A stretch of 64,000 nt of DNA from Gemmatimonadaceae bacterium. Its GTDB lineage: Bacteria > Gemmatimonadota > Gemmatimonadetes > Gemmatimonadales > Gemmatimonadaceae. Position numbers and translations under genes: made by a program. The stretch covers positions 1-64,000 of the forward strand of contig JALHNZ010000004.1 in assembly GCA_022843265.1 (NCBI GenBank), given 5' to 3'. How positions within the stretch are numbered: position 1 is the first letter of the stretch; every line of letters starts with the position of its first letter. Below the pieces are notes generated by a model. That model made no database searches and was not told the DNA's origin. It worked only from the letters and a program-made list of their open reading frames with translations. Below, piece by piece: positions 14,461 through 29,661 of this stretch.

Positions 14461-14497
14461 CAGGCGCGCGGGAGGCTTTTACGCTCCCGCATGCCTG
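14461..14497 (+). promoter_or_regulatory. Hairpin that encloses the start codon of the TolB-like lipoprotein gene
   Basis: CAGGC (14461-14465) and GCGGGAG (14468-14474) can pair with CTCCCGC (14484-14490) and GCCTG (14493-14497), giving 12 base pairs around a 9-base loop. The AT of the ATG at 14491 lies in the small internal loop, and the only GGGAGG-like ribosome site is in the stem. No U-run follows, so it is not a normal terminator. It may limit translation initiation. Confidence 0.5.
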
Positions 14498-15615
14498 TCA
14501 ATCCGATAGTTTCCTCGCGCGCTGCGGCGCGCGCCCTGAGTGCGGCCGCTCTCGCGCTCCTGTTCACCGCCTGTGGCGAAAAGCCCGAGGCCGAAGCTCC
14601 CCTTACCGCCGAAGCGCAGGCCGGCAGCTCGCCGGCCGTGATGATCGAGCCGGAAGAGGCGGAGCGCGCGTTCATTGCCAACGTTCGCCAGCTCACCTTT
14701 GGCGGCGAGAACGCCGAGGCGTACTGGAGCGCCAATGGCGAGTACATCACGATGCAGAGCACCCGTGATGGCGCCGCCTGCGACCAGCAATACGTGATGC
14801 GCGCCGACGGATCGGACGTGAAGAAGATCTCGGTGGGTGGTAAGACCACCTGCGGATTCTTCTACGACAACGACAGTCGCGTGTTTTTTGCCGCGACGCA
14901 TCACGCGGATACCGCCTGCCCGGTGAAGCCGGATCCGTCGCAGGGGTACGTGTGGCCGCTCGACAAGTTCGACTTCTACACGTCGAAGCCTGACGGCAGC
15001 GATCTGCAGCGTCTCACCAACTACGGCGTGTACACGGCGGAGGGCATTCTCTCGCCCGATGGCAAAACGATCGTGTTCACATCCACGAAAGACGGCGACC
15101 TCGACATTTATACCATGAATGTCGATGGCACGAACGTAAAGCGTCTCACCAACACGCCAGGCTACGACGGCGGCCCGTGGTGGTCGCCCGATGGCACGAA
15201 GATCGTGTACCGCGCGCATCATCCGAAAGATTCAGCGGAGCTCGCCCAGTACAACGCGCTGCTCGCGAACAACATGATCCGTCCAAGCAAGGTTGAGCTG
15301 TTCGTGATGAACGCCGACGGCAGCAATCAGACGCAGATCACGAACTTGGGCGGCGCGAACTTTGGTCCGTCATGGACACCAGACGGTCAGCGCATTCTGT
15401 TTTCGTCAAACCATTCGAATCCGCGCAGCCGTGATTTCAACCTGTACATCGTGAATCTCGACGGCACTGGGCTGACGCAGGTCACGTCGCATCCCGAGTT
15501 TGACGGCTTCCCGATGTTTAGCCCGGACGGCACCAAGATTGTCTGGGCGTCAAACCGGAACGCCAAGTCGGAAGGCGAAACGAACGTGTTTGTTGCGGAT
15601 TGGGTCGGCAAGTAA
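14491..15615 (+). CDS. TolB-like beta-propeller lipoprotein
   Basis: A 374-residue exported lipoprotein: signal peptide with lipobox LLFTAC ending at about Cys28. The mature part consists of WD40-like/PD40 repeats typical of TolB, with repeated SPDGTKIV/ NVDGTNVKRLT patterns: ILSPDGKTIVFTSTKDGDLD, WWSPDGTKIVYRA, WTPDGQRILFSS, and MFSPDGTKIVWASNRN. This makes a six-bladed propeller in the periplasm. There is no N-terminal TolB D1 domain, so it is not the TolB of the Tol-Pal system itself; it more likely belongs to the DUF5050/PD40 lipoprotein group of unknown role. Its start codon lies in an RNA hairpin. Confidence 0.85.
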   Translation: MPVNPIVSSRAAARALSAAALALLFTACGEKPEAEAPLTAEAQAGSSPAVMIEPEEAERAFIANVRQLTFGGENAEAYWSANGEYITMQSTRDGAACDQQYVMRADGSDVKKISVGGKTTCGFFYDNDSRVFFAATHHADTACPVKPDPSQGYVWPLDKFDFYTSKPDGSDLQRLTNYGVYTAEGILSPDGKTIVFTSTKDGDLDIYTMNVDGTNVKRLTNTPGYDGGPWWSPDGTKIVYRAHHPKDSAELAQYNALLANNMIRPSKVELFVMNADGSNQTQITNLGGANFGPSWTPDGQRILFSSNHSNPRSRDFNLYIVNLDGTGLTQVTSHPEFDGFPMFSPDGTKIVWASNRNAKSEGETNVFVADWVGK

Positions 15616-15680
15616 CGGACCGCTCGCGCACCGTTCGTAGGCTGGGGATCCTGAGGAACACGGCAGGCCGTTAGTTTGAT

Positions 15681-15707
15681 AGGAGGGGCGCGTATGCGCG
15701 CCCTCCT
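15681..15707. other. Intergenic hairpin
   Basis: AGGAGG plus GCGCG (15681-15692, one extra G bulged) can pair with CGCGCCCTCCT (15697-15707) around a TATG loop. It lies between the TolB-like lipoprotein gene and the SPFH gene. No T-run follows in either direction, so it may be a weak terminator or a leader structure. Confidence 0.4.
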
Positions 15708-15734
15708 GTCACCCGCTGCCTGGGAGCATCTACC

Positions 15735-16847
15735 GTGCTTGTGCTCGCTATCCTTGGTCTTATTGCTCTCGCCGTGGTCATGTCGTCGGTGAAAATCATC
15801 GGCCAGGCTGAAGTCATGGTGGTTGAGCGGCTTGGCCGCTTTGATCGCGTGGCCCGTTCGGGATTGAACATTCTGATCCCGTTTATTGAGCGGCCGCGAT
15901 CCATCGAAGTGCGATTCTTCGATTCAGATCCCGGTGGACTCAAGCGCGTGGTGCAGTCGGTCACCGCGCGCATTGATCTGCGCGAGCAAGTGCTGAACTT
16001 TCCGAGCCAGCCCGTGATCACCAAAGACAATGTCACGATCGACATTGATGCGGTGCTCTACTATCGCGTCGCCGATCCGCAAAAGGCTACGTATTCCGTC
16101 GCGAACTTGCCGTACGCGCTCGAAACGCTCACGCGTACCACGCTGCGTAATATCGTAGGCGAAATGGAACTCGACTCCACGCTCTCGAGCCGCGACGTGA
16201 TCAACACGCGCATGCGCGAAGTGATTGAAGAAGCCTCCATCGGTTGGGGCGTCGACGTGACGCGTGTCGAACTGCAGAGCATTGAACCCCCGCGCGATAT
16301 CCAGCAAAGCATGGAACTGCAAATGCGCGCGGAGCGTGAGCGTCGTGCGGCAGTTACGAATGCGGAAGCGAGCAAGCGTGCCGCGGTGCTCGAAGCGGAA
16401 GGCTTGCGTGAATCGCAGGTGCGAAAGGCGGAAGGCGAACGCGAAGCGTCGATCTTGCGCGCGCAGGGTTTGGCCGAAGCACGCCTGGCAATGGCCGACG
16501 CAGAAGCGGCCGCCATTACGCGCATTGCGGGTGCACTGCCCGATGGCCAGGCGTCGACATATCTGCTTGGACTCAAGTATCTGGAAGCCTTGCCGCAACT
16601 GGCCGCCGGCAAGGGCTCCACGGTGTTCTTGCCCGTTGAAGCGTCTGGCGTGATGGGCGCGCTCGGTGGATTGCGCGAGTTGTTGCGCGCGCGTGAAGCA
16701 GATGACACATCGCCCGGCAGTGCACCACTGCGCCGGCCCGCGCCTTCGGCATCGCTCGGCTTCCCGGATCCGATGCGCGGCATGCTTGGCACCGGCCGCG
16801 ACGCGCATCGCGACGCGCCGCATCGCGACGACGAAAGCAAGGGCTGA
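15735..16847 (+). CDS. SPFH/band-7 (stomatin-like) membrane protein
   Basis: A 370-residue protein with an N-terminal membrane helix (1-20), the SPFH domain (about 20-190; VVERLGRFDRVARSGLNILIPFIE and NIVGEMELDSTLSSRD are characteristic), a long Ala/Glu-rich coiled coil (about 195-260; AERERRAAVTNAEASKRA), and a Gly/Pro-rich tail. Such proteins oligomerise on membranes and help stabilise or regulate other membrane proteins. The GTG start at 15735 has GGGAG eight bases upstream. The usual NfeD partner is not adjacent; a small zinc-ribbon protein overlaps by one base instead. Confidence 0.88.
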   Translation: MLVLAILGLIALAVVMSSVKIIGQAEVMVVERLGRFDRVARSGLNILIPFIERPRSIEVRFFDSDPGGLKRVVQSVTARIDLREQVLNFPSQPVITKDNVTIDIDAVLYYRVADPQKATYSVANLPYALETLTRTTLRNIVGEMELDSTLSSRDVINTRMREVIEEASIGWGVDVTRVELQSIEPPRDIQQSMELQMRAERERRAAVTNAEASKRAAVLEAEGLRESQVRKAEGEREASILRAQGLAEARLAMADAEAAAITRIAGALPDGQASTYLLGLKYLEALPQLAAGKGSTVFLPVEASGVMGALGGLRELLRAREADDTSPGSAPLRRPAPSASLGFPDPMRGMLGTGRDAHRDAPHRDDESKG

Positions 16848-17065
16848 TGAGCATTACGCAGGAACGTGCCGAACGTATTGCTCGCGCTCACGCGTGCTCC
16901 GGTTGCAAGGAGTACACGTGGCGCAAGGTCAGCGTGAAGCCGAGCAGCACTGCGCTGCGCGAGTCATTGCTCGTGGTGTGGAGTGCGTCGATGAAGTGTG
17001 GGATTTGCGGAAACGAGCAAGAGCTCGGTATCGACGACGACGGAGATATTGTATTTGAGGGGTGA
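16847..17065 (+). CDS. Small cysteine-rich (zinc-ribbon-like) protein
   Basis: A 72-residue soluble protein, start overlapping the SPFH stop (TGATG), so translationally coupled. Two CxxC pairs, CSGC near residue 17-20 and CGIC near 51-54, suggest a zinc ribbon. The acidic tail is IDDDGDIVFEG. No known family is recognised. A strong terminator lies 34 bases after the stop. Confidence 0.7.
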   Translation: MSITQERAERIARAHACSGCKEYTWRKVSVKPSSTALRESLLVVWSASMKCGICGNEQELGIDDDGDIVFEG

Positions 17066-17098
17066 CGTGGCAGCACGCTGTTCCTCGCCCCTACAGCA

Positions 17099-17139
17099 AG
17101 CGGGCGCTCTCACCAGATGGTAAGAGCGCCCGTTTTTTT
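17099..17139 (+). terminator. Rho-independent terminator
   Basis: CGGGCGCTCT (17101-17110) pairs perfectly with AGAGCGCCCG (17123-17132), with a further ACC/GGT pairing inside the loop, followed by seven T (17133-17139). It ends the SPFH / small zinc-ribbon transcript. Confidence 0.93.
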
Positions 17140-17191
17140 GCCTGCAGTTAGTACAGCGCGACAGCGCGTGTAGACCACGCCACGCTGCGTA

Positions 17192-17716
17192 TTACGCCGC
17201 CACCGCTTCCGGCGCCGCCTGCACCTCGAGTTCAAGCGTCACGTTATCAGAGACCAGCACGCCACCCGCCTCGAGCGCGGCGTTCCAGGTCAGGCCCCAC
17301 TCCTTGCGCGAGATCTTGGTGGAGAGCGTGGCGCTGACCTTCGTGTTGCCCCACGGATCCTTGGCTGGACCACCAACTTCGCCCGTCAGCGCGACCGGCT
17401 TGGTCACGCCACGGAGCGTCAGTTCACCGTGCGCCTTGAGCGTCTCGCCAGTGCGTTCCGTGTTCAGTAGACGGAACGAAGCCGTGGGATACGTGGCCAC
17501 ATCAAAGAAGTCGGCCGAACGCAGGTGATCGTCGCGCTGTGTGGCGCCGGTGCTCAATGAGGCCACGTCGATCGAGACATCCGCCCCGCTGATCGTGCCG
17601 TCGTTCTCGTCGATCGTGCCGCTGATCGTATCAAACGTGCCGCGAACGGTTGAGATACCCATGTGTCTGACCGAAAACGTGATCTGGCTGTGTGCTGGAT
17701 CGATTGCCCACTTCAT
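17192..17716 (-). CDS. YceI-family lipocalin-fold protein
   Basis: A 174-residue YceI-like protein: a beta-barrel that binds polyisoprenoid-type lipids. Motifs: MKWAIDPAHSQITFSVRHMG at the start, GADVSIDVASLSTG, RDDHLRSADFFD, and ELTLRGVTKPV. No signal peptide is seen, so this copy appears cytoplasmic. The ATG at 17716 has GAGGA eight bases upstream; an ATG at 17752 lacks one. It lies downstream of a MarR-type regulator in the same direction, and the intergenic AT-rich region holds a likely MarR operator, so induction by a small ligand or oxidative stress is plausible. Confidence 0.9.
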   Translation of the reverse strand: MKWAIDPAHSQITFSVRHMGISTVRGTFDTISGTIDENDGTISGADVSIDVASLSTGATQRDDHLRSADFFDVATYPTASFRLLNTERTGETLKAHGELTLRGVTKPVALTGEVGGPAKDPWGNTKVSATLSTKISRKEWGLTWNAALEAGGVLVSDNVTLELEVQAAPEAVAA

Positions 17717-17780
17717 GGCGGAGTTCCTCGGGATGTCGTAAGGGTGAAGCAACTGAGATTCAATTGCTCATATATGATAT

Positions 17781-17794
17781 TCTCAGTACTAAGA
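17781..17794 (-). promoter_or_regulatory. Putative MarR operator upstream of the YceI gene
   Basis: TCTCAGTACTAAGA is a near-perfect inverted repeat (TCT-C-AGTACT-A-AGA) inside a very AT-rich stretch (17762-17800) that must hold the YceI promoter. A related sequence, GCTCAGTAGAGAGA at 18522-18535, lies upstream of the marR-like gene and agrees at 10 of 14 positions. Confidence 0.5.
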
Positions 17795-17840
17795 TATATC
17801 GACCCTCGATGCGGCGCAAGAGGTCAATGGGTTGTCTGAA

Positions 17841-18398
17841 CTATTCGCCGCGCGCCGAGGAAAACTCGGCCGCCGCCGCGCCGTGTCCCAGCCGCTTGAG
17901 CAGAGAAGCCGCCGCCGCCTGCTCTTCCGGGCTTAGCGCCCCGACCACACGCTCGATCATCGCCGCGTGCTGCGGGAAGATGCGGGCGATCAGCGCCTCG
18001 CCCTCGGCCGTGAGCGCGGCGTAGCGCGCTCGGCGATCCGACGGGCACTCCTGACGCTCCACAAGCCCCTTGGCTACCAGTCGGTCGACCAGGAAGGTGA
18101 TACCACCGCTGGAGACCAGAATGCGGCGCTGCACTTCGCCCAGGAGCATCGCCCCGCGGTGATACAGCGCCTCCAGAATTGCGAACTCAGTGAGCGTCAG
18201 CCCATGGCGAGCCACATCGTCGGCCACATGCGCACTCACGGCGACCTGCGCACGCGAGAGCACCACCCACAACTTGAGTGCCGCAGCGGTATCATCGCTG
18301 ACATCGAGTGGGTGCGCCGTTCCGGCCACAATGCCGTGCGAATCTGCGGGCTCCCGCAGGACGACAGTGTCGGTTTCAGACTTTTCGTGAACTGGCAT
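17841..18398 (-). CDS. MarR-family transcriptional regulator
   Basis: A 185-residue winged-helix regulator. Residues about 60-150 show the MarR core: LTLTEFAILEALYHRGAM, LGEVQRRILVSSGGITFLVDRLVAKGLVERQECPSDRRARYAALTAEG (recognition helix and wing with the DRR motif). A C-terminal helix completes the dimer domain. The ATG at 18398 was chosen because the upstream extension to 18695 is Cys/Pro-rich and not family-like. Encoded just upstream of the YceI gene and co-directional with it; probably represses yceI and itself through the paired sites noted at 17781 and 18522. Confidence 0.87.
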   Translation of the reverse strand: MPVHEKSETDTVVLREPADSHGIVAGTAHPLDVSDDTAAALKLWVVLSRAQVAVSAHVADDVARHGLTLTEFAILEALYHRGAMLLGEVQRRILVSSGGITFLVDRLVAKGLVERQECPSDRRARYAALTAEGEALIARIFPQHAAMIERVVGALSPEEQAAAASLLKRLGHGAAAAEFSSARGE

Positions 18399-18521
18399 AG
18401 GTAACTCAAGCCTCAGCTTTGACGCACCGTTACGCAAGTGCGGTGGGTCAGGACTCGCGGTTCGGACTGGAAGGACCGAACAACAACCGACAATCACTGT
18501 TTTGACGGTTATTCTCTCATG

Positions 18522-18535
18522 GCTCAGTAGAGAGA
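18522..18535 (-). promoter_or_regulatory. Putative MarR auto-regulatory site
   Basis: GCTCAGTAGAGAGA resembles the operator at 17781-17794 (10 of 14 bases) and lies about 124 bases upstream of the marR-like start, flanked by TCTCTC/GAGAGA inverted repeats (18513-18518 and 18530-18535). Confidence 0.35.
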
Positions 18536-18616
18536 TGGACCCGGAATCATTATTATGCGGATGACGCGCTGGTGCGACGGTCGCACCACGCTTCGCACAC
18601 CCGAAGAGGGGGGGTA

Positions 18617-18826
18617 ATGCGGAAGCCGAGGCCGAACACCTACAACCCTGCACAGGCGCTGCACCTGATTGCGAGTGATCGCAGTGCCCTGCCACTGAGC
18701 TGTCCGTCTTGTTCCGGTGAGATCACGCGGGAGCCCGCGCTGTATCCACCGCCGACTAACTCACACGTCACGCTCAAATGCGCGGTGTGTGGTCGCTTCG
18801 CTCGCTACATCGCCGGCAACGGCTGA
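18617..18826 (+). CDS. Small zinc-ribbon-like hypothetical protein
   Basis: A 69-residue protein. CPSC (about residues 29-32) and CAVC (about 54-57) make a four-Cys metal site like a rubredoxin/zinc-ribbon knuckle. The ATG at 18617 is directly preceded by a G-rich ribosome site (GAGGGGGGG); an upstream GTG/ATG-like extension to 18572 lacks one. No family recognised. It ends at a bidirectional terminator shared with the convergent YggX-like gene. Confidence 0.6.
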   Translation: MRKPRPNTYNPAQALHLIASDRSALPLSCPSCSGEITREPALYPPPTNSHVTLKCAVCGRFARYIAGNG

Positions 18827-18850
18827 GCGTCTCCACCCAATCACGCAGTT

Positions 18851-18895
18851 ACAACAGGAACGCCCCGGCCACATTGGTGACCGGGGCGTTGTTGT
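18851..18895. terminator. Bidirectional terminator hairpin
   Basis: AACGCCCCGG (18859-18868) pairs with CCGGGGCGTT (18881-18890), extended by ACAAC (18851-18855) with GTTGT (18891-18895) across an AGG bulge. It sits between convergent genes. The T-runs are weak (GTTGTTGT), so efficiency is uncertain. Confidence 0.7.
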
Positions 18896-18981
18896 ATCGC
18901 CCACGAATTGCCTGGCACACGCTTCGCACACATACGTCGCGCCCGAAACTTCGTTCAAGCGTGCACGAATGTGTCGGTGCG

Positions 18982-19266
18982 CTACCAGTTGATCGTGCCT
19001 TGTTTCGTTGTGTCTACGTTTTCCGCATCACCCGACTTGAACAGAAACCGATCACGATTGCGACTCAGGAACGTGCGCGCTTGCGCGTCCATGAGATTGA
19101 GGCCGTAGTGATTGATCAGCATGGTTTGCTGCTTGAGCCAATCTGCCCAACACGTTTGGCATACTTCGGCAACCAGACGTTCAGCGGTGGCACCAACCAC
19201 ACCAATCGGCGCCTTCTCAAAACCGGCGCGCGTTTCTCCGCAGCGCTTGCACGTGATATCGGGCAT
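18982..19266 (-). CDS. YggX-like Fe(II)-trafficking protein with N-terminal zinc-knuckle
   Basis: A 94-residue protein. Residues about 40-78 carry the YggX signature WADWLKQQTMLINHYGLNLM followed by an ARTFLSRNRDRFLF helix; YggX proteins protect Fe-S clusters and handle labile iron. Unlike the classical family, the N-terminus holds two CxxC pairs (Cys6/Cys9 and Cys36/Cys39), suggesting an added metal site. Start ATG at 19266. Convergent with the small zinc-ribbon gene; not in an obvious operon. Confidence 0.8.
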   Translation of the reverse strand: MPDITCKRCGETRAGFEKAPIGVVGATAERLVAEVCQTCWADWLKQQTMLINHYGLNLMDAQARTFLSRNRDRFLFKSGDAENVDTTKQGTINW

Positions 19267-19338: not shown

Positions 19339-19872
19339 CTAGAGCAGCGACGCGGGTTCAAGTCGTAGAGTTGACGCAGGCGGAGGCGGCGTGTTGACGT
19401 CTGGTGCGATCCAGATGACCTCCACCGCGTACTGTCCGGCGGACTGTGGCGCCGACAGCACCACGCGGTCGGCGTTCCACGACACCAGCTGTCCGCTCGC
19501 GTCAAGCACCTGCCAGTTTGGTCCGGGGGCGCCAGCCTCAATCACCAGTCGACCTGACACATTACTGCTCACGTCCACTTTTGCGACCCAGGCGCGCTGC
19601 GCCAGCTGGGGCGTGGCTGCGTCACCTAACCGGGCACGCATCAGTGAGACGCCGGGCCGCGAATGTGATGAAATTGCCGTACGCGTGACAATCGGCACCT
19701 CGCCCACCAGCGTGTGGCGCACCGTGTGTAGCGGTGTTCCTGCAGCTTGTGCGCCGCTCGCCCGTGGCGCCAACGCCACGATTGCCATCAATAGCAACGC
19801 GCTCGCCCGGCCAACGAGAGGGCTCGAGACAAGGGCGCGTAGGACTGGGCGGGAGGAACACACAGAGCTCAT
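19339..19872 (-). CDS. Secreted hypothetical protein, last gene of the chaperone-usher-like locus
   Basis: About 177 residues with a signal peptide ending near RASGAQ (about residue 42). The mature part is beta-strand-rich: WVAKVDVSSNVSGRLVIEAG, WQVLDASGQLVSW, AGQYAVEVIWIAPD, ending with a Pro-rich tail. No known family. It follows the second pilin-like gene in the same direction with a 105-base gap, so it may be an accessory or tip component. The start is uncertain: ATG 19872 is preferred, GTG 19890 is in frame; a perfect hairpin (TGCCGAT-GCGT-ATCGGCA, 19872-19889) covers this region. Confidence 0.6.
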   Translation of the reverse strand: MSSVCSSRPVLRALVSSPLVGRASALLLMAIVALAPRASGAQAAGTPLHTVRHTLVGEVPIVTRTAISSHSRPGVSLMRARLGDAATPQLAQRAWVAKVDVSSNVSGRLVIEAGAPGPNWQVLDASGQLVSWNADRVVLSAPQSAGQYAVEVIWIAPDVNTPPPPASTLRLEPASLL

Positions 19873-19951
19873 GCCGATGCGTATCGGCACAGCGCGTGCC
19901 GAAGTTAAGCGTCGGCGGGCGGGATTCGCTGCGAAATTCCCGCGGTGTAAC

Positions 19952-19981
19952 GGTGGCGCGCGCTACGGTGGTGCGCGCTAC
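19952..19981. repeat. 15-base tandem duplication at the end of the second pilin-like gene
   Basis: GGTGGCGCGCGCTAC (19952-19966) is followed directly by GGTGGTGCGCGCTAC (19967-19981), one mismatch apart. The gene's stop codon (TAG on the minus strand, 19978-19980) lies in the second copy, and the other copy holds the same TAG. Confidence 0.7.
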
Positions 19982-20607
19982 GGTGCCGTCACGTTGATCG
20001 TGAGCGGCAGGCTGTACGTGCCCGGTGGATTGCTCGCAAAAATCCAGCGTACGCGAAAACAGAGCTGACGCATGACCCCATTCATGCCCGCGTTTGACCG
20101 AATGAGCACGCGCGGCGCGTTGCGCTGAACTGCAATCGGGCTCGCGCTCAGGGGTGTCATCAAGACACCCGTGCACATGTTCTCCATTGTGGACAAACCG
20201 AGATCAACATCTGCAGCCGATTTCAGCGCCGGTCCGCTGAACACCGGTTCGTTTACCAGCGTCACGCTGATTCCGAAGTTCGACTGCGCGCGCAACGTCG
20301 GGCCCACAATCACAATGCCGGTATCGGCCGCGATGCTGAATCCGCCATTCGCAGCAGCGGCAACACCGCCGGCAAGATCGGTGGTGGTGCGGTTGAGCTG
20401 CACGAGCGATTGCACCGGCAGTTGCACCGACGCCGTCAGATTGACGGTGCACGTTCGCGTTTGTCGTCGTCCGGGCTGCTGAACCGTGCAACTCGATTGC
20501 GCAGACACCGCTGTGCTCAGCAGCAGCAACGCGGGCACGACATAACGCGCGAATCGTGCCGAGGTGGTGAAACTCGCGCGGAGAGTTTGCGCCACGGTCG
20601 CACTCAT
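19978..20607 (-). CDS. Pilin-like protein of the SCPU/CsuA type (second copy)
   Basis: A 209-residue exported protein with a signal peptide ending near TAVSAQ (about 37). Cys pairs, Ala/Val/Thr-rich strands and the C-terminal block QLCFRVRWIFASNPPGTYSLPLTINVTAP-like resemble the spore-coat-U/CsuA-B pilin fold and match the end of the first gene of this locus (QLCFDIVWNYASDTPGSYELPL). Its ATG overlaps the stop of the lipoprotein gene by 4 bases. I infer it is a fibre subunit or tip adhesin; family assignment is by pattern, not by alignment. Confidence 0.65.
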   Translation of the reverse strand: MSATVAQTLRASFTTSARFARYVVPALLLLSTAVSAQSSCTVQQPGRRQTRTCTVNLTASVQLPVQSLVQLNRTTTDLAGGVAAAANGGFSIAADTGIVIVGPTLRAQSNFGISVTLVNEPVFSGPALKSAADVDLGLSTMENMCTGVLMTPLSASPIAVQRNAPRVLIRSNAGMNGVMRQLCFRVRWIFASNPPGTYSLPLTINVTAP

Positions 20608-21023
20608 CGCTGCCGCACCAGAACAAACGCGCCCGATGTAAAAGACGCGTCGAGTCCGCTGTCGTTGAACCAGGTGCCGGAAATGCTGTCACCCGAGACA
20701 CGCCCGATATGCCGCACCACGGAGCCATCAAGCGTTGCTTCAAACTCCATCGCGTCATTGCTGCGTCGACCGATCACCAGCCCTGCCACACGCTGCACCT
20801 GACCCACCGGATCGGTACGCCGGAGATCGAGCAGGCCTTCAAAGCGAGCGCTGCTCACCGGGGTCAGCTGCAAGCCTCCCTCAAGGCGAAGCGCTACCGG
20901 AAGCCGCTGCTCTCCCGCGTAGCGCCACTGTTCTGTGCTCGCATGCGGCTCCAGCGAAGCATTCACGCACGCAGATGCCGCCAACAACCACAGGCTCAGG
21001 AACACGCGTGATGTGCGCATCAT
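20604..21023 (-). CDS. Lipoprotein of unknown function
   Basis: A 139-residue protein with a lipobox LAASAC (Cys at about residue 19), so a likely outer-membrane or periplasmic lipoprotein. The mature part alternates strands with Gly/Ser turns (FEGLLDLRR, MEFEATLDGSVVRHIGRVSG, ISGTWFNDSG, SGAFVLVRQR), reminiscent of a small beta-barrel. It overlaps the usher-like gene by ATGA upstream and the pilin-like gene by ATGA downstream, so it is fixed in the operon and may assist the barrel. Confidence 0.7.
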   Translation of the reverse strand: MMRTSRVFLSLWLLAASACVNASLEPHASTEQWRYAGEQRLPVALRLEGGLQLTPVSSARFEGLLDLRRTDPVGQVQRVAGLVIGRRSNDAMEFEATLDGSVVRHIGRVSGDSISGTWFNDSGLDASFTSGAFVLVRQR

Positions 21024-24000
21024 GGCCGACCCGTTGCAGCCGGGCGTTCAACCGGTGGTGCACGAAACACACGCACACGACGTGGTCCCACCAGCACACG
21101 CACAGTCTGTCGTGCGCGCTGTCCATCAAGCCGCACGGTGGGTGACACGCCCTGTACGCTGAGCGGTTCCCGTGCAGCTGACCCATCAACGTCAATGCGG
21201 TACACGCCGGGAGGCAACGCGTCGAATACGGCGCGTCCGTCGGGCAGCAACGTCGCGAGGTGACGACGTCCCGCCTCGTCAATCGCCGCGACCGTCACGC
21301 CCGCTAGCGAGAGCGCCGTGCCGTCCACCATCGAGTCATGCACGATCTCAAGCCTCACTTCAACGGCTCCAACCGGCACGACCGGAATGTCGAGGGATCC
21401 GTCGCGCAGTGCGCCTGCGGTGGCGCGACTCACCTGCGGCGCCAGCATCAACCCAAACGGCAACGAGCGTTCATCCAATTCGGGAATGCCTGCCCCGACA
21501 CGCGTCAGGCGATAGCTGCCATCGCGATCCGTCACCAATACTTCACCGCCAATCCGCACCAGCACACTCGCCAGACCTCGTTCACCTTGATCGCGCACGC
21601 CATTGCCATTGAGATCTTCGAAGACCACACCCATGCCGCGTCCGCCGCGCAGAAACGCTGGTGCACCAAAGTTGCGCTCAACGCGTAGTGCGGTGGTCCA
21701 GCCACGGGCGCCGTTGAGCGCAAACGCCGGATTGCGCTCAAAATCAACGCGAATGTACGTCTGAAACGGCAACACCGACGCCAGACCCACGCGCTGCGTC
21801 AACACTTCCGATCCAGTGCCCAAACTGACAGTGCGACCAACGGCCGCATTGACATACAGTCGCTTGTCCATGAATGGCACGGCAATCTGCTCCGCGCGCA
21901 ACGCCATATCGTGCTGACCATCGCCAAGCACTGCCGCGCCGGAACGACGTTGCACGGCCGAGTACAGATCAAATGTGCCAATGGCGGTAGGCCACAGCAG
22001 CTGCGTTGACCAGAACAGCTGATCCTCACGCTCACGCGGCAGACGCGAATCAAAGTACGCGAAGTCTCGCTGCAACTGTGTGTACGTTGCGCTCGCCGAT
22101 GCGGTCAACACACCAACTCGCGTTGAACCAAACAGACCGGCGATCTGTGAAAGCGTCGAAAGCTGGACCGACGCGTCACCGCTGCGCGAGCTGCCAACGC
22201 GCGCTTCAAATCCAAGGCTGCTCGACTGTCCAAGGCGAAACTGCGGCATTACGCCGACGCCGCTCGTCTGCTGCACAACGCCACGTTCGCCTTCGTCACT
22301 CGCGTACCACCCAAGATAGCCGAACCGCAACACGCCGAGCCCCTGTCCACCAGTCATGGTGATGTCTGTTTGCGCGCGCGCGAATGCGCGACTGCCGCCG
22401 GGCGCATGCGTTGCGCGCAAACGCCAATCACTGCGTGTGGTACGATTGCCAAACTCGGCCGCGGCACCAACGCCGCTTCCATTATTCCATCGGCGATACG
22501 CCAGTTCGCCACGCGCGTCCACACCAGCGTCGGCGACACGCTCCGCGCCCAATGCAAACGCGTCAAGTTCCGCGCGTGTAATCAGTGGATCACGCAAGTG
22601 ACTCGCCGACGCCGTGTACGCAATGCCGCCACGAATCGCGCGGGCACGCAAACCCGCCAGCACACCGCCGTATTGCACAATCAACGAACGATTGAACCCC
22701 TGCGTCTCGTTGCTCGATGGCGCGATGCCGAGCGTAAATGGCCGCGCTGCGAGCGCGGAGAGCTGCCACATGGTGTCGCCCATTGTGGCGGACACACCGC
22801 GACCGTCGCGTGTGAGCCCCGCCATGTCGCCGAAATCAACCGCGGCGTTACCTGCGTCCACTCGCCAGTTGGGATGAATAAACGCGATGGTGGGAAACGC
22901 CTGTCCACCGCCAATGCGCGAGAGACCGGGCGCACCGCCAACGGCGCGCTGTGTCCACGCAGCGCTCACGTTTACGCGCGAACTGATCGGTCCGGTGAGC
23001 GTGAACCCCCAGCTATCGAGATACGCCTGCCCTGGCTGCTGCACAGCGTTGTAGCTCAGTCCCAGCACGGGCCCAAAGGCTCCGCCGCGACTGGCCGACA
23101 GCACCTCTACAGGCAGTGAGAGTGTGCGCGGGGCGGCATCGCTGGATGTGGCGTCGTCCTTCAATCGGGCGGCGTACAGTTGCATGCTTGACGCGCCAGC
23201 CTGATGATCCCGCGGCACCGTCACTTCAATATCGCGCGTCACTGTTTCGCCGGGAGCCAGCACAATGCGCGCGGACTGCTGCACACGCCCCCGCCAATCA
23301 ACCGGCAAGGTGAGCGAGAGACTTACCGTGTCTTCAACGTTACCACCGTTCGCGATCACAACCCGCACGGCCGTGCGTTTACCCGGCATGGCATGCATCG
23401 TGGGTGCGGCTGGCGTCACACTGATCGCACGAACGGGTGCGACCATGACGTCCACCGGCGCGACCACTGTTTCGGCGCGTAACGTTTCTGAATTTGCAGG
23501 CAGATGAAATCGCACTTCGGCCAGTCGTAGCGCACCCGCGAGCGCTTTGCTCGGCACCGACACACTCAGGGTCACACGCGAGTCGTTGCCAACAAGCACA
23601 CCGGCCGAGGCACCGCCGACCACAGCGCCCGGCGCGCGGTGCACGGTGTACGCAATCGAGTCATGCGCTCCCAGTGTGACGGGTGCCGCGATGCGCACGA
23701 GATGAATGCTGCGCGGCGCGGCCTCGATCAACGTGGCGGGCACGACGCGCACCGTGCCCGTCGCGGCGTTCGCAGTGCTCTCCACGTTTGGCGTCAGCGC
23801 TGCATCGCGAAGGTCTGCGCTGGCAGTCACGGTGAGCTCGATCGGCACAATCACACGGTCACCAGTGCCGTCGGCAGACCAGAAGCGCACGTCAGCCAGA
23901 CGGTGCACTCCCGGAGCGGCGGACATGGGTGCACGCACGAGCAGTGGCACGGTCGCGTCGGCACTCATGAACGTACCGTCACCCGCACCGCCCACCGCGC

Positions 24001-24196
24001 CGGCGAGCGTGCGATTGACATGAAAGCTGATCGAATCGCTGGAGCGCAACAGCACGGGAACTGGCACACTGAGCGTTGTGCTCGTGCCCGACTCAAGGGT
24101 TATTCGGATTGTTGGCGCAACGCGAATATTCGGCGGCGCCGCGTTTATGGAATGCGCAAACGCAAACGTGAGCGCCACGGCAAGACGCGCAATCAC
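21020..24196 (-). CDS. Large usher-like outer-membrane beta-barrel protein
   Basis: A 1058-residue exported protein. Visible order: signal peptide (MIARLAVALTFAFAHSINA), two homologous beta-sandwich repeats (about 30-125 and 150-255, each with SI-x-hydrophobic-x-V-x-R ... AVVGGA/GAVGGA ... AEVRF/ADVRF), an NEW3/Ig-like domain (about 258-366), a long Gly/Tyr/Arg-rich region of alternating strands (about 373-845) like an outer-membrane barrel, an SdrD-B-like domain with the calcium motif EDLNGNGVRDQGE near 859, and a final Ig-like domain. Canonical PapC ushers are shorter and lack these repeats, but position beside a PapD-like chaperone and pilin-like genes suggests fibre assembly or export. 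GTG 24196 chosen because it overlaps the preceding stop by GTGA. Confidence 0.65.
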   Translation of the reverse strand: MIARLAVALTFAFAHSINAAPPNIRVAPTIRITLESGTSTTLSVPVPVLLRSSDSISFHVNRTLAGAVGGAGDGTFMSADATVPLLVRAPMSAAPGVHRLADVRFWSADGTGDRVIVPIELTVTASADLRDAALTPNVESTANAATGTVRVVPATLIEAAPRSIHLVRIAAPVTLGAHDSIAYTVHRAPGAVVGGASAGVLVGNDSRVTLSVSVPSKALAGALRLAEVRFHLPANSETLRAETVVAPVDVMVAPVRAISVTPAAPTMHAMPGKRTAVRVVIANGGNVEDTVSLSLTLPVDWRGRVQQSARIVLAPGETVTRDIEVTVPRDHQAGASSMQLYAARLKDDATSSDAAPRTLSLPVEVLSASRGGAFGPVLGLSYNAVQQPGQAYLDSWGFTLTGPISSRVNVSAAWTQRAVGGAPGLSRIGGGQAFPTIAFIHPNWRVDAGNAAVDFGDMAGLTRDGRGVSATMGDTMWQLSALAARPFTLGIAPSSNETQGFNRSLIVQYGGVLAGLRARAIRGGIAYTASASHLRDPLITRAELDAFALGAERVADAGVDARGELAYRRWNNGSGVGAAAEFGNRTTRSDWRLRATHAPGGSRAFARAQTDITMTGGQGLGVLRFGYLGWYASDEGERGVVQQTSGVGVMPQFRLGQSSSLGFEARVGSSRSGDASVQLSTLSQIAGLFGSTRVGVLTASASATYTQLQRDFAYFDSRLPREREDQLFWSTQLLWPTAIGTFDLYSAVQRRSGAAVLGDGQHDMALRAEQIAVPFMDKRLYVNAAVGRTVSLGTGSEVLTQRVGLASVLPFQTYIRVDFERNPAFALNGARGWTTALRVERNFGAPAFLRGGRGMGVVFEDLNGNGVRDQGERGLASVLVRIGGEVLVTDRDGSYRLTRVGAGIPELDERSLPFGLMLAPQVSRATAGALRDGSLDIPVVPVGAVEVRLEIVHDSMVDGTALSLAGVTVAAIDEAGRRHLATLLPDGRAVFDALPPGVYRIDVDGSAAREPLSVQGVSPTVRLDGQRARQTVRVLVGPRRVRVFRAPPVERPAATGRP

Positions 24197-24708
24197 GGGC
24201 GAAACACCGAGAGCGTGAGTGCGATGTTGCTGGCAACGGTAGACGGCGCAGGATCTGCCCACGCAATGCGCACACGCAACCAGAGGGTGCCCGACCACGG
24301 ATCGTTCAACCCATTGGGTATCACCGTACGCGACTCAACACTATTGTCGAGCAACGTCAACGCGCGCCACGGACCCACTGGCCCGTTCCGCCACTCCACA
24401 TCCGTGCACTGTTTCGGGCCGGTGACCGTGACGCAGCGAATGAGCACGTCGGTAATGCGCGTGCTGTTCTGATTGAGCACACTGACGGTAAAGGGTACCG
24501 CCACCGAATCGGTGACAGGCCCGGTGGCGCTCGCTGGCCACGCGGTATAGTTCGCCATGCGAGGCGTCGGGATGGTGACGGCGCCGGTGGAGAGCGCGAA
24601 CCCGGTACTCTGGCCTGGCATCGCACGCCACGGCGAGAGGCTGCCGATGAGCAGCGTCACGGTGCAAAACAATCGCGTGAGGGAGAAAGCCATGCGCGCC
24701 GTTCGCAC
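24193..24708 (-). CDS. Secreted pilin-like minor protein
   Basis: A 171-residue exported protein with a signal peptide (FCTVTLLIGSLSPWRAM...). The mature part has one Cys pair (IRCVTVTGPKQC), strand-rich spacing, and ends in LWLRVRIAW...SNIALTLSVFRP, similar in layout to the C-terminal block of the two SCPU-like proteins. It starts with GTG directly after the chaperone stop (ATG 24693 is an alternative) and overlaps the usher-like start. Most likely a minor or adaptor subunit; not assignable to a named family. Confidence 0.6.
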   Translation of the reverse strand: MRTARMAFSLTRLFCTVTLLIGSLSPWRAMPGQSTGFALSTGAVTIPTPRMANYTAWPASATGPVTDSVAVPFTVSVLNQNSTRITDVLIRCVTVTGPKQCTDVEWRNGPVGPWRALTLLDNSVESRTVIPNGLNDPWSGTLWLRVRIAWADPAPSTVASNIALTLSVFRP

Positions 24709-25599
24709 TTACCGAACCTCGTACTCCAGCTGACCCGCGACAAGTTCGCTGCCACCAAAGTCGAGCAGCGCAAGCATCACATAGCGACCAGCGGGCAGTT
24801 CGGGCAGCAGCTGTTGCAGCATGCGGCGTGAACCCGGCAGCACGGGAAACGTGGCCACGTCAACACGATGCGCAACGGAGTTGTCGGCGCGACGCACTTC
24901 GATGGAACCCTTCACAAGCAACTGCACGTCGCCAACGTTACGAAAGCCAACCGAGAGGGTGGGCGGCGCAAACGTACGCGTGGTATTGTGGGCCGGCGCG
25001 GAGTGGGATTCCATGGGCGGCGCGTCCTGGGTCGGCGTATCGTTGAGCGTCATGGCATCGATCAATCCATCACGCACCGCGCTTGTCGACTCACCGTACA
25101 CTTTGATGCCCGTGCGCACGTTGTAGCTCAGCTGCCGCGCGCCCTCCACCGCCGTGGCGCGGTTTTCAAAGAAGACAATCGACCAGCAGTTCGACGGCAC
25201 CTTGTCAGACGCCGTGAGCGAGATGCGCACATTGGCACTCTGCCCCGGCTCGAGCACGATCGACTTGGGGAACACCTCAAGTCCGGCCGCGCAACTGTTC
25301 TTCATTGTGTGCGCCGCGTAGAAGCGATTGGTGCCGGCTTCATCGCGATCCCAATCCTCGATCGTCACCACAGCCTGCACGGCCTTGGCTGTTTCATTAC
25401 GTACGGCCACGATGCGCACCGTTGGTGTGGTCGATGGTGTGACAAACAGCTCGAGCTCATCAACGGTGAGCTGCGCTTCAACGGCCGCGGGCAGCAACAG
25501 ACAGCACACGGCGAGCAGGACGCGACGCCAATCGCTGGTGCGCTCGGGGCGATCGGGGCGTGGTTCCTGAATGGTGAGAACGGGCGGGCGGGCAGTCAT
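24709..25599 (-). CDS. PapD-like periplasmic fimbrial chaperone
   Basis: A 296-residue protein with an unusually long N-terminal leader (43 residues; membrane segment WRRVLLAVCCLLLPAAVEAQ). The mature part has the PapD-like first domain: ELELFVTPSTTPTVRIVAVRN, VVTIEDWDRDEAGTNRFY, FPKSIVLEPGQSANVRISLT, CWSIVFFENRA, and YNVRTGIKVYG, which corresponds to the strand order and the edge-strand region used to donate to pilins. A second beta domain follows (VGFRNVGDVQLLVKGSIEVR). It should escort the pilin-like proteins of this locus. ATG at 25599 chosen over the open frame to 25686, which has an unlikely Arg-rich start. Confidence 0.78.
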   Translation of the reverse strand: MTARPPVLTIQEPRPDRPERTSDWRRVLLAVCCLLLPAAVEAQLTVDELELFVTPSTTPTVRIVAVRNETAKAVQAVVTIEDWDRDEAGTNRFYAAHTMKNSCAAGLEVFPKSIVLEPGQSANVRISLTASDKVPSNCWSIVFFENRATAVEGARQLSYNVRTGIKVYGESTSAVRDGLIDAMTLNDTPTQDAPPMESHSAPAHNTTRTFAPPTLSVGFRNVGDVQLLVKGSIEVRRADNSVAHRVDVATFPVLPGSRRMLQQLLPELPAGRYVMLALLDFGGSELVAGQLEYEVR

Positions 25600-25804
25600 G
25601 CGAGGCAGGATGAAAACGGTGGGGGCGCGAATCGCTAAAGTTCGGCGCGCTGGTGCCGAGACTCGAAACCGAGGTGTCGCGGGCATGCAGCAACTAGACG
25701 CGTCTGTGCCAGCGCGGTAACGCCGCGCGTCGGTAGGCCGCAGTTTGTGAGACAGGGGGCCGTGGCTGTAATGCCAAAGCGGCCAGACCGTCTGTCGGAC
25801 ACAG

Positions 25805-25840
25805 CGAAAAGGGGAGCCTGCACCTGTGCAGACTCCCCTC
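25805..25840 (-). terminator. Terminator between the first pilin-like gene and the chaperone
   Basis: Read on the minus strand, AGGGGAG-T-CTGCAC / GTGCAG-G-CTCCCCT makes a 13-bp stem (25810-25839) with a 2-base loop and one mismatch, followed by TTTT. Being inside the locus, it would let most transcripts stop after the pilin-like gene, giving more subunit than chaperone and usher. Confidence 0.8.
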
Positions 25841-25884
25841 CGTTCCGTCGCGGTAGCAGCTCGCCGAGCGTGAGAGCGTCCCGA

Positions 25885-26433
25885 TTACGGTGCGCTGACG
25901 CTGACGTTCAGGGGCAGTTCGTATGAGCCCGGCGTGTCCGAGGCATAGTTCCACACGATGTCGAAGCACAGCTGCTGACGCGGCGAGGTGCCAGCGGTAC
26001 CAGAGTAGATGAGTGCGGCCGTGGTGCTGACGGCCGTGTACGACGTCGCAGAGCTGCAACCGGCAGCAGCTGTCACGCGAGCCCACCGTGCGTCACCGGC
26101 AGACTTCGCGGCGTTCGCGCCAGTGCCGGCGGTGAAGTTCGCGTTGGTTGACGCGACAGACACCGAGTAGGTGCGATTGGCACGCGCTTCGAAGAGCGGG
26201 CCGTTGATCTGCTGACCGCTGTTGTAATGCGCGGCCGTGATGGTGCCAAGATTGGTGATGGCATTCTCGAGCGTGAGCGTCACGAGCGTTGGTACGTTCG
26301 CGTTCAGCGTGTGTGCACACGCTGCGCCACCGACGGAGCACGAGGGGCCCGAGAGCGGCTGCGCACCAGCTTCGGCCGAGAGAACAAGGCCGAGCGTAAA
26401 CACGCCGGCTACAACTGAAAGGCGACGGAACAT
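25885..26433 (-). CDS. Pilin-like protein of the SCPU/CsuA type (first copy)
   Basis: A 182-residue exported protein with a signal peptide ending near AEAGAQ. Cys pairs CSVGGAAC and a third Cys AAGC, long runs of Ala/Thr/Asn in strands (SVSVASTNANFTAGTG), and the C-terminal QLCFDIVWNYASDTPGSYELPLNVSVSAP-like block. The layout matches the SCPU/CsuA-B pilin family. ATG 26433 is preferred: GGAG lies nine bases upstream, whereas the nearer ATG (26442) abuts it. First gene of the locus, with its own terminator downstream, as expected for the major subunit. Confidence 0.72.
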   Translation of the reverse strand: MFRRLSVVAGVFTLGLVLSAEAGAQPLSGPSCSVGGAACAHTLNANVPTLVTLTLENAITNLGTITAAHYNSGQQINGPLFEARANRTYSVSVASTNANFTAGTGANAAKSAGDARWARVTAAAGCSSATSYTAVSTTAALIYSGTAGTSPRQQLCFDIVWNYASDTPGSYELPLNVSVSAP

Positions 26434-26705: not shown

Positions 26706-28196
26706 CTACAGCGATTTGACCTCGGACACGAGCTTCGTCAGCGACGTTTTTGCATCGCCGAAGAGCATGTTCGTCTTTTCGTCGAAGAACAGCTCGTTCT
26801 CAATGCCGGCGAATCCGGGATTCATGCCGCGCTTGAGCACGATGATATTGCGCGCCTCACTCACATTGAGAATGGGCATGCCATAAATCGGCGATGACTT
26901 GTCAGTTTTTGCGGCCGGATTCACGACGTCGTTCGCGCCAATGACCACGACAACATCCGTCTCGTGAAAGCTGTCATTGATCTCTTCCATATCGTACATC
27001 TTGTCGTATGGCACGTTCGCTTCGGCGAGCAGCACGTTCATATGCCCAGGCATGCGACCGGCGACGGGATGGATCGCGTACTTCACTTCACCGCCGTTCT
27101 TCTCAATCAGTTCGGCGAGTTCGCGCACCTGGTGCTGCGCCTGCGCCACGGCCATGCCGTAGCCCGGCACGAACACCACGCGTCCGGCATACGCCAGCTG
27201 CACCGCCGCGTCTTCGGCACTGATGCTCTTGGCGACCAGCCCTTCCGACGTTTTTCCGCTTGACGTAACCACGCTGCCGAACGCGCCAAAGAGCACGTTG
27301 CCAAACGACCGGTTCATGGCCTTGGACATGATGATCGACAGAATAAAGCCGGATGCACCATCGAGTGCACCGGCAATGATCAGCACGTTGTTATCAATCG
27401 CGAAGCCGGTAGCCGACGCGGCGAGACCGGCGTACGAGTTGAGCAGCGACACCACCACCGGCATATCGGCACCGCCGATCGGCAGCACCATGAGCACGCC
27501 AATCGCAAACCCAGCCGCGAGCATCACGTAAAACACGCGCACGTCGAATGGATTGAAGATCATCCAGACAAAACAACCAATCGCGGCGGTGAAGAGCAGG
27601 AGATTAAAAAAGTTTTGCCCCTTGAACGTGATCGGACGGCCCGTGATGAACTCCTGCAGTTTGCCGAACGCCATGAAGCTGCCGGTCACAGTCAGTGATC
27701 CAAACAACACTTCAAATCCAATCGCGGCCATCTTGAAGCGTTCAATGCCCGCAGCGCCTTCGATCTGAATAGAGTGGTAGTACTCACCCACACCAACGAG
27801 CGTGGCCGCCAGCGCACCGAACATGTGCGAGAACGCAATGCGCTGCGGCATTGCGGTCATTGGCACAAACTTGCCGAGCGGATAACCCAGCACCGCGCCG
27901 AGAATCAAACCACCAATGATCCACGAATACGTGAGAATACCGCTGTTCAGCAGCGTCCCCACAATCGCGAACGCCATGCCGAGCGCGGCGAGCTGCATGC
28001 CTCGGCGCGCCTGATCCGGTTTGGTGAGCGAACGCAAACCGAGAATGAACAGCACCGACGACGCGAGATACGTGAGTTGTACCATCAACTCACGGCCACC
28101 GAGTGCATCCATCGATGCGCCGGTCGGACTCGACATCAGCAAATAGGCGGCCGCGGCCGCCGTGGGCAGCCCAGCCAGAAACAGAAGCAGACTCAC
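26706..28196 (-). CDS. pntB: NAD(P) transhydrogenase subunit beta
   Basis: A 496-residue membrane protein: the beta subunit of the proton-translocating transhydrogenase, which transfers hydride between NADH and NADP+ using the proton gradient. The N-terminal two-thirds hold about nine helices; the C-terminal part is the NADP(H)-binding domain III with GYGMAVAQAQHQVREL, AIHPVAGRMPGHMNVLLAEANVPYD and the GANDVVNPAAK motif. GTG start at 28196, in a GTGA overlap with the upstream subunit stop, so it is coupled. The frame is open to 28310 but that overlaps the neighbour. Confidence 0.95.
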   Translation of the reverse strand: MSLLLFLAGLPTAAAAAYLLMSSPTGASMDALGGRELMVQLTYLASSVLFILGLRSLTKPDQARRGMQLAALGMAFAIVGTLLNSGILTYSWIIGGLILGAVLGYPLGKFVPMTAMPQRIAFSHMFGALAATLVGVGEYYHSIQIEGAAGIERFKMAAIGFEVLFGSLTVTGSFMAFGKLQEFITGRPITFKGQNFFNLLLFTAAIGCFVWMIFNPFDVRVFYVMLAAGFAIGVLMVLPIGGADMPVVVSLLNSYAGLAASATGFAIDNNVLIIAGALDGASGFILSIIMSKAMNRSFGNVLFGAFGSVVTSSGKTSEGLVAKSISAEDAAVQLAYAGRVVFVPGYGMAVAQAQHQVRELAELIEKNGGEVKYAIHPVAGRMPGHMNVLLAEANVPYDKMYDMEEINDSFHETDVVVVIGANDVVNPAAKTDKSSPIYGMPILNVSEARNIIVLKRGMNPGFAGIENELFFDEKTNMLFGDAKTSLTKLVSEVKSL

Positions 28197-28519
28197 GAGG
28201 CCCCGCCTGTGGTATCCTGCGGCGCCGTGGGTTTGGAATCCGCACGCTTGAACATGCTCAGCATGCGATCCGTGATAATGAAACCACCCACCACGTTGGT
28301 CATCGCGCACACCACCGCGATGAAGCCAAGAACCGTAGCGACGGTGCCGTACTGGCCGCCCGCGAGCACGATACTGCCCACGAGTGAGATGCCGCTGATC
28401 GCGTTCGTCGCGGCCATGAGCGGTGTATGCAACAGCGGCGGTACTTTGGTGATCACCAAGTAGCCGACAAAGCCGGCGAGGATGAACACGTAGAGCTGAA
28501 TGATTTGTGTAACGGTCAT
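28193..28519 (-). CDS. NAD(P) transhydrogenase alpha subunit, membrane part (PntA2)
   Basis: A 108-residue membrane protein corresponding to the C-terminal membrane domain of PntA, found as a separate subunit in three-part transhydrogenases. Three to four helices (about 5-25, 33-52, 60-84); motifs YLVITKVPPLLHTPLMAATN and GFIITDRML. It sits between pntA and pntB and overlaps the latter by 4 bases. Confidence 0.93.
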   Translation of the reverse strand: MTVTQIIQLYVFILAGFVGYLVITKVPPLLHTPLMAATNAISGISLVGSIVLAGGQYGTVATVLGFIAVVCAMTNVVGGFIITDRMLSMFKRADSKPTAPQDTTGGAS

Positions 28520-28554
28520 GGAAGCAGTCCGGAGAAGCGGTCGGGAATCACGTA

Positions 28555-29661
28555 CTAGCGGCGCACAACACCCGCGTGCGCGACAGCCATCGCACCAGTG
28601 ATTTCATCATCAAGATCCACGTGCAGCGCACCCTCCTTATCAAGGTGCTGCAACAACGTGAGCATATTGCGACTGTACATCTGGCTCGCGTGCAGCGGCT
28701 GCGTGGCCGGCAGGTTGCGAGCGCCAATGATCGACACGTCGCCCTCCATCACGGTCTCACCAAGTACGGTGAGTTCGCAGTTGCCGCCTGTCTCTGCCGC
28801 GAGGTCAACGATCACGGAACCCGGCTTCATGCTCCGCACCATCTCGGCGGTCACCAATCGAGGCGCCGCGCGACCAGGAATCTGCGCCGTGGTGATTACC
28901 AGATCCTGGTCAGGGATATGCCGCGCAATGGCGGCCAGCGTGCGCGTCTGCTCGTCGTCACTCTGCGCTTTTGCGTAGCCGCCTTTGTCCTCCGCGCCCG
29001 CACTGACCAGATCGGTGGCCACGAACTTCGCGCCCAGCGATTGCACCTGCTCGCGCGCGGCGGCACGAACATCAAACGCACTGACCTGCGCACCAAGTCG
29101 ACGTGCCGTTGCGATCGCCTGCAAACCAGCAACACCAGCGCCAATCACAAACGCCTTGGCTGGTTGAATTGAACCGGCGGCCGTCGTGAGCGACGGCAGA
29201 AAACGCGGCAGCGCGGCGGCGGCGATCAGCACGGCCTTGTAGCCCGCGACCGTGGCCTGCGACGAAAGCACATCCATGCTTTGCGCTCGGGTAATGCGCG
29301 GTACCAGCTCCATGGCCAGCACCGTGACCCGCCGCGCGTTAAGCGCCGTCACCAGGGCCTGTGCGCTCGACGGCTGCAGGAGGCAGGCCACCGCGGTGCC
29401 TTCCGGCAGGGCCGCCACTTCGGCCTCGGACGGTCGCTGTACCTTGGCCACCAGCGCCGCGCCGTCGACGGTCGCCGCAAAGCCGCTGGCCAATCGAGCA
29501 CCAGCCTTTTCGTACTGCTCATCCGGAAAGTAGGCCATCGCGCCCGCCCCACGCTCGACAACGACTTCATGTCCCGCCTTGATCAGCTTGACCACGCTGT
29601 CTGGGACAAGAGCCACGCGGCGCTCAAACTCTTCTGTCTCCCGAGGAACACCAATGCGCAT
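28555..29661 (-). CDS. pntA: NAD(P) transhydrogenase subunit alpha, NAD-binding part
   Basis: A 368-residue NAD(H)-binding domain I, related to alanine dehydrogenase. Motifs: MRIGVPRETEEFERRVALVP, the Rossmann turn VIGAGVAGLQAIATARRLGA with acidic FDVR, GGYAKAQSDDEQTRT loop (partner contact), TTAQIPGRAAPRLVTAEMV, and VDLAAETGGNCE. First gene of the three-gene pnt operon (pntA / PntA2 / pntB) on the minus strand; the 187-base gap upstream (29662-29848) must hold the promoter but I see no clear hexamers. Confidence 0.95.
   Translation of the reverse strand: MRIGVPRETEEFERRVALVPDSVVKLIKAGHEVVVERGAGAMAYFPDEQYEKAGARLASGFAATVDGAALVAKVQRPSEAEVAALPEGTAVACLLQPSSAQALVTALNARRVTVLAMELVPRITRAQSMDVLSSQATVAGYKAVLIAAAALPRFLPSLTTAAGSIQPAKAFVIGAGVAGLQAIATARRLGAQVSAFDVRAAAREQVQSLGAKFVATDLVSAGAEDKGGYAKAQSDDEQTRTLAAIARHIPDQDLVITTAQIPGRAAPRLVTAEMVRSMKPGSVIVDLAAETGGNCELTVLGETVMEGDVSIIGARNLPATQPLHASQMYSRNMLTLLQHLDKEGALHVDLDDEITGAMAVAHAGVVRR

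Follow-up and report, generated by a model that had tools for sequence, protein, structure and literature searches.

The locus considered here raises the question whether seven co-directional ORFs on the minus strand of a bacterium of the genus Gemmatimonas (positions 19339-26433 of the window, i.e., of the whole stretch of 64,000 nucleotides analyzed) encode a complete system for assembling surface pili and, if so, what kind of protein serves as its usher. In the largest of the seven proteins, an outer-membrane barrel, Pfam and NCBIfam profiles recognize only NEW3, SdrD_B, and a CarboxypepD_reg domain below cut-off, and Pfam finds neither an usher nor an SCPU domain. Taking chaperone, pilins, usher-like barrel, and operon order together, we consider it likely that the locus encodes a complete chaperone-usher (CU)-type pilus export and assembly system. 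The usher most likely represents a lineage that lacks an internal plug, carries NEW3/Ig domains at its N-terminus, and goes unrecognized by standard profiles.

Organization of the Locus

The features of the locus, in the order in which they would be transcribed, are the following:

25885..26433, minus strand: pilin 1, about 182 aa, probably the major subunit, with signal peptide, Cys35/Cys42 pair, N-terminal extension, and pilin Ig core (residue numbers counted from the ATG at 26442)
25808..25841, minus strand: RNA hairpin between pilin 1 and chaperone, a terminator-like or processing hairpin
24709..25599, minus strand: PapD-type periplasmic chaperone, start ATG at 25599, open frame reaching 25686
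24193..24708, minus strand: P3, third pilin-like secreted protein, 171 aa, matched by the pilin-family HMM
21020..24196, minus strand: usher-type outer-membrane barrel, 1058 aa, start GTG at 24196
20604..21023, minus strand: P5, small conserved lipoprotein, accessory, 139 aa, with lipobox-like LAASAC, kept beside the barrel in the family
19978..20607, minus strand: pilin 2, 209 aa, placed where archaic CU operons have their tip subunit, homologous to pilin 1
19339..19890, minus strand: P0007, a small secreted protein confined to the genus and encoded at the end of the locus

The stop of the chaperone gene and the start of P3 abut (24709/24708), and overlaps of 4 bp join P3 to the barrel, the barrel to lipoprotein P5, and P5 to pilin 2. 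The arrangement of seven co-directional genes, five of them abutting or overlapping by 4 bp, that had been reported in a preliminary description of this DNA is thus found again in the ORFs and junctions. A promoter scan of the locus gave no result. The hairpin following pilin 1 has a stem of 13-16 bp and recurs at this place, its sequence altered, in each of the five copies of the genus (5/5); it was not listed by a terminator scan and has only four T. In E. coli K-12, the sRNA FimR2 is annotated in the fimA-fimI gap, which corresponds to the position of this hairpin.

One might ask whether the operon is a non-functional or eroded copy. Apart from strong divergence from the copies of the same genus, nothing was found that would point in this direction, and the seven intact frames, their coupled starts, and a gene order conserved in about 20 genomes make erosion extremely improbable.

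A Chaperone of the PapD Family

The chaperone belongs to the PapD family. Alignment of the chaperone-family profile with a reference profile, comprising the chaperones of E. coli K-12 and one archaic chaperone from Gemmatimonadota, gave a match in hhalign of E 1.4e-12 over 208 columns, compared with E 0.7 for the reversed reference. A chaperone without the PapD fold had been named beforehand as a finding that would remove the usher interpretation, and this profile match points the other way. PapD_N is matched by 9 of the 25 chaperone-family members (best 1e-8), and EcpB (E 0.005), CupB2, and PapD are among the PDB chains matched by the family profile. The proline in the motif EVFP, conserved in nearly all rows of the family alignment, aligns with Pro60 of mature EcpB, and the CU-invariant proline (Pro59 in CsuC, Pro60 in EcpB) is therefore present.

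Arg89, the carboxylate anchor by which archaic and alternative chaperones are recognized (PMC4654587), is absent from the chaperone-family alignment, where serine and other residues occupy its place in CWSIVF. The lysine in RTGIKVY lies opposite the lysine in RIKLYYRP of FimC, in an alignment that is weak. Going by PapD and FimC, this lysine may correspond to the classical Lys112 anchor. The leader of the chaperone, earlier described as unusually long, is partly a matter of start-codon choice, as ATG 25599 leaves about 42 aa ahead of a signal-peptidase-like site. No second chaperone, either of this type or of the sister-system type described below, was found in the genome from which the window derives.

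Pilins

The AlphaFold2 model of pilin 1 consists of a confident core (pLDDT about 97-98 from residue 50) and an N-terminus that is of low confidence or disordered. Foldseek searches of the PDB with this model return a list headed almost entirely by CU pilins (probability ~1.0, E 0.002-0.05), CfaB being the best match, followed by the type 1 rod/FimA, the PapA rod of P pili, CsuA/B, PapE, and FimG. As no match falls below E 0.001, the weight rests on the consistency of this list. Judged by its model, pilin 1 has the fold of a CU pilin, an incomplete Ig domain with an N-terminal extension as putative donor. The highest TM-scores of pilin 1 (0.53-0.56) are those to the filament proteins TLP-1a/b (9ikj, 9ikk), which the PDB describes only as cryo-EM of “TLP-1”.

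When 34 pilins are aligned, all of them have Cys35 and 33 have Cys42. Following this pair, hydrophobic residues alternate at positions 44, 46, 48, and 50 (mean hydrophobicity of residues 43-50: -0.4, 2.0, -0.8, 2.5, -0.9, 2.6, -1.1, 3.3), Pro or Gly comes next in most pilins, and the final strand ends at the C-terminus. Work on the Csu pilus has described alternating hydrophobic residues as characteristic of N-terminal donor strands (PMC4654587). Pilin 2 is homologous to pilin 1 (phmmer 4e-9; family HMM 3e-42), and P3, which had been called a third pilin-like protein, is indeed related to the other two, matching the pilin-family HMM with E 4e-6 in the window and down to 7e-18 in relatives. The label SCPU/CsuA-like given earlier to the pilins finds no backing in the sequence, where SCPU (PF05229) is matched by 0 of the 34 family members and by nothing in the window's own genome, although in its predicted fold the protein is a CU pilin. 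Likewise, known pilins show no sequence match to the family, a profile-profile alignment of E 0.004 being confined to the signal-peptide region. Searches of the PDB with pilin sequence or profile gave chance matches only.

All pilins of the family are of single-domain size, and the operon encodes no two-domain adhesin. These features, together with a conserved lipoprotein that could anchor a coat, would agree with a product made of short fibrils or a coat resembling a capsule, as in the case of Caf1, instead of long pili with a tip adhesin; the assembly route would be the same and only the final product different. However, the presence at each locus of three distinct pilin-type proteins points to ordered tips or adaptors, and the pilin model is closest to rod subunits, though this resemblance does not discriminate. 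We regard fibrils or a coat as rather unlikely and retain a pilus as the preferred product.

The Barrel: Domains, Fold, and Missing Plug

The pilus reading assigns the role of usher to the 1058-residue barrel protein, which is composed of the following regions:

Residues ~25-124 and ~149-252: N-terminal repeats, two homologous domains
Residues ~264-351: NEW3 Ig-like domain (NEW3 match 3e-11)
Residues 377-844: plug-less barrel region, 26 predicted strands
Residues 857-904: SdrD_B-like domain (SdrD_B match 7e-8)
Residues 959-1005: CarboxypepD_reg-like domain (match below family cut-off)

The two N-terminal repeats align locally with a score of 130, the highest score among 300 shuffles being 59, and the first copy is matched independently by the family model (E 2.6e-12). 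Together with the NEW3 and SdrD_B matches, this bears out the composition first proposed for the protein, i.e., two homologous repeats, an Ig-like domain, a barrel, and an SdrD-like domain. Its AlphaFold2 model (mean pLDDT 81.6, pTM 0.52, pLDDT mostly >90 in residues 510-800) shows the same layout, with two N-terminal β domains, the NEW3 domain, 26 strands (377-844), and two C-terminal β domains.

In Foldseek, FimD ranks first for this model (2e-14) and PapC reaches 3e-11, ahead of LptD (1e-7) and TonB receptors (1.2e-7), so that the closest folds are ushers and not TonB-type or other barrels. High ranks are also held by Ig-rich ciliary proteins, for which the Ig domains are presumably responsible. 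Full-length TM-scores to ushers are mostly 0.2-0.34, and the isolated translocation domain of FimD reaches ~0.41, the same as BtuB. For the predicted structure, the fold ranking favors an usher and the TM-scores alone do not decide. With FimD first in the fold search and a chaperone of the PapD family at its side, the suggestion that the barrel is a new type of usher gains support.

By sequence, the barrel does not resemble known ushers. PF00577 has no match in the window's own genome and none among 20 barrel-family members (0/20), PapC_N and PapC_C domains are missing from the barrel, and alignment with a profile of known ushers is non-significant (hhalign E 0.002, probability 14%). EcpC, FimD, and an archaic usher were also tried as single sequences in hhalign, and nothing significant emerged.

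Ushers consist of five domains, namely an N-terminal domain (NTD), a 24-strand barrel, an Ig-like plug in the β6-β7 loop, and the C-terminal domains CTD1 and CTD2 (PMC4356140, PMC8410936). In the barrel studied here, β6 (465-473) and β7 (477-486), with strands counted from residue 377 on the model, are joined by 3 aa. The longest loop between any two strands of the model is 26 aa, and the largest extra insertion anywhere in the barrel among 31 aligned family members is 24 aa, so the barrel offers no room for an internal plug, whichever strands are assigned as β6 and β7. The domains earlier held to be foreign to classical ushers fall into two kinds: the NEW3/Ig N-terminal domains are foreign, and the SdrD_B- and CarboxypepD_reg-like domains are not extras, as they occupy the positions of CTD1 and CTD2. 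The genuine departures from ushers are thus the NEW3/Ig domains replacing the usher NTD and the absent plug.

Distribution in Gemmatimonadota and a Plugged Sister System

When 249 Gemmatimonadota genomes were searched with a barrel model from which the SdrD part had been removed, 19 of them matched at E <1e-175 (at least 20 places) and three more at 1e-26 to 1e-39; the remaining matches are short and restricted to the NEW3 region, leaving a clear gap. For the first genome-wide scan, the chaperone alignment was used, as the barrel alignment has no usable conserved stretch. About 20 Gemmatimonadota genomes share the order pilin-chaperone-P3-barrel-lipoprotein-pilin, and this synteny shows that the arrangement is more than chance. 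In L080, L084, L097, L098, and L101, the lipoprotein gene lies upstream on the other strand. A reduced version, pilin-pilin-chaperone-barrel, is present on two Verrucomicrobiota contigs (L109 and L110, titled Verrucomicrobia, Chthoniobacterales), one of which has a further pilin after the barrel. Duplication of the N-terminal domain of the barrel is found in genus copies only, and one genus copy (L074) has a single domain. Some genomes contain two copies of the system, either in tandem (L084 in G039) or as L072/L073 (G145).

Through the C-terminal half of the barrel, a sister system was reached in other Gemmatimonadota, in which chaperone A7 is encoded beside an usher, A8, of ~850 aa (loci L118-L135, e.g., L118:5563-9325 and L123:3903-7275). 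The sister barrel aligns with reference ushers (E 2.9e-9 over 469 columns) and carries a plug-like segment of ~89 aa in the expected place. The C-terminal halves of both barrel families align with 99.3% probability (E 6e-21), and the chaperones of the two systems do so at E 2e-19. An alignment limited to the barrels of the family and of its plugged sisters is undetectable, and the link therefore rests on the C-terminal half. The pilin profile built here did not recognize pilins in the sister system. The sister system is common in other Gemmatimonadota and is likewise missed by the standard usher profile save for weak partial matches of PF00577 to 3 of 15 sister barrels. A canonical archaic CU locus, with SCPU pilins and a PF00577 usher, occurs in only one of the 249 genomes (L133 in G069).

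These comparisons bear on the possibility that the barrel is an outer-membrane exporter of unrelated origin that was recruited to a chaperone and pilins, acquired its SdrD/CarboxypepD domains separately, and secretes subunits without catalyzing strand exchange. The non-significant similarity of the barrel to ushers or plugged sisters, the absence of the plug, and a TM-score to BtuB similar to that for the isolated barrel of FimD would all be expected of such an exporter. Against it, the best fold match is an usher, whose E value is lower than those of other barrels by more than six orders of magnitude; the protein holds the usher position of a CU-ordered operon; and two C-terminal β domains follow the barrel exactly as in the plugged sisters. 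We consider an unrelated exporter improbable and an usher of divergent type the better reading.

Divergence Within the Genus

Within the genus, the operon occupies a fixed site, with a small gene of zinc-ribbon-like type on one side and, on the other, the pnt genes, assigned to transhydrogenase by visual inspection of the sequence. Comparison of genus genomes gives 32-63% identity for all seven operon proteins, as opposed to mostly 75-94% for the flanking proteins (window 14491-19266 and 26706-29661), and the borders are sharp on both sides. Homologs of P0007 occur only in the genus loci L071, L073, and L074; as P0007 lies in the fast-diverging cassette (32-35% identity) beside slow flanks, it can be placed inside the operon unit. 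To judge from these sequences, the pattern would fit fast surface diversification or cassette exchange.

Proposed Mechanism and Significance

In the proposed pathway, Sec would export the three pilin-type subunits to the periplasm, where the PapD-like chaperone would cap each of them by donor-strand complementation and hand it over to the 1058-residue usher. At the usher, an incoming subunit would displace the chaperone strand with its own N-terminal extension (donor-strand exchange), and the growing fiber would pass out through the barrel. The roles of CTD1 and CTD2 may fall to the SdrD-like and carboxypeptidase-regulatory-like domains, and the NEW3/Ig-like domains may stand in for the usher NTD. 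As the plug has been described as the channel gate in papers on ushers, an usher without one must be gated differently, perhaps by its N-terminal Ig domains. Donor-strand complementation and exchange, the growth of a fiber, a gate formed by the N-terminal Ig/NEW3 domains, and an adhesive role are what we infer. Points that weigh against a CU reading are the non-significant sequence match to ushers, low TM-scores, 26 instead of 24 strands, the missing plug and two-domain tip adhesin, and the non-conserved Arg of the chaperone.

Somewhat more speculatively, and with slightly less than even confidence, one might propose a further CU class in Gemmatimonadota and Verrucomicrobiota, in which a plug-less usher would be gated periplasmically by N-terminal Ig/NEW3 domains and the chaperone anchor would differ both from the full classical Arg8/Lys112 pair and from the archaic Arg89. 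A natural lineage of plug-less ushers makes it testable what stops so large a pore from leaking and which parts of an usher are needed for fiber growth. It would also extend the CU pathway to a phylum in which annotation by profiles detects hardly any such system, a single one of canonical archaic type being present among 249 Gemmatimonadota genomes. A text search of the open-access literature found no papers linking usher systems with Gemmatimonas or Gemmatimonadota.

Comparison With Known Chaperone-Usher Systems

With archaic (σ) CU systems such as Csu pili (CsuA/B-A-B-C-D-E), the locus shares the gene order pilin(s)-chaperone-usher-pilin (compare csuA/B-csuC-csuD-csuE), single-Ig pilins with N-terminal alternating hydrophobic residues, and a PapD-type chaperone with the CU-invariant proline. 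It differs from them in lacking matches to the SCPU and usher Pfam families, Arg89 of the chaperone, and a two-domain adhesin, and in possessing an additional lipoprotein and a plug-less usher with NEW3/Ig N-terminal and SdrD/CarboxypepD C-terminal domains. Among alternative (α) CU systems, e.g., ECP (EcpA-E) and CFA/I, EcpB is the best PDB profile match of the chaperone (E 0.005) and CfaB the best fold match of the pilin, whereas sequence matches to EcpC or EcpA were not found and the Arg89 anchor is absent here. The classical ushers FimD and PapC provide the nearest fold for the barrel model and have in common with it a large single-chain barrel and two C-terminal β domains. In contrast to their 24 strands, β6-β7 plug, and different NTD, the protein described here has 26 predicted strands, a 3-aa turn between β6 and β7, and Ig/NEW3 domains at its N-terminus. 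The sister A7/A8 system shares the SdrD/CarboxypepD C-terminal half (E 6e-21) and a related chaperone (E 2e-19) but differs by its ~89-aa plug, its match to the usher profile (E 2.9e-9), and a chaperone with an invariant Arg near the Arg89 position. In formal terms, the chaperone is a member of its CU family, the pilins are members by predicted fold only, and the barrel stands apart both by usher profile and by plug. The system would work like a chaperone-usher system but lies outside the classical, alternative, and archaic classes.
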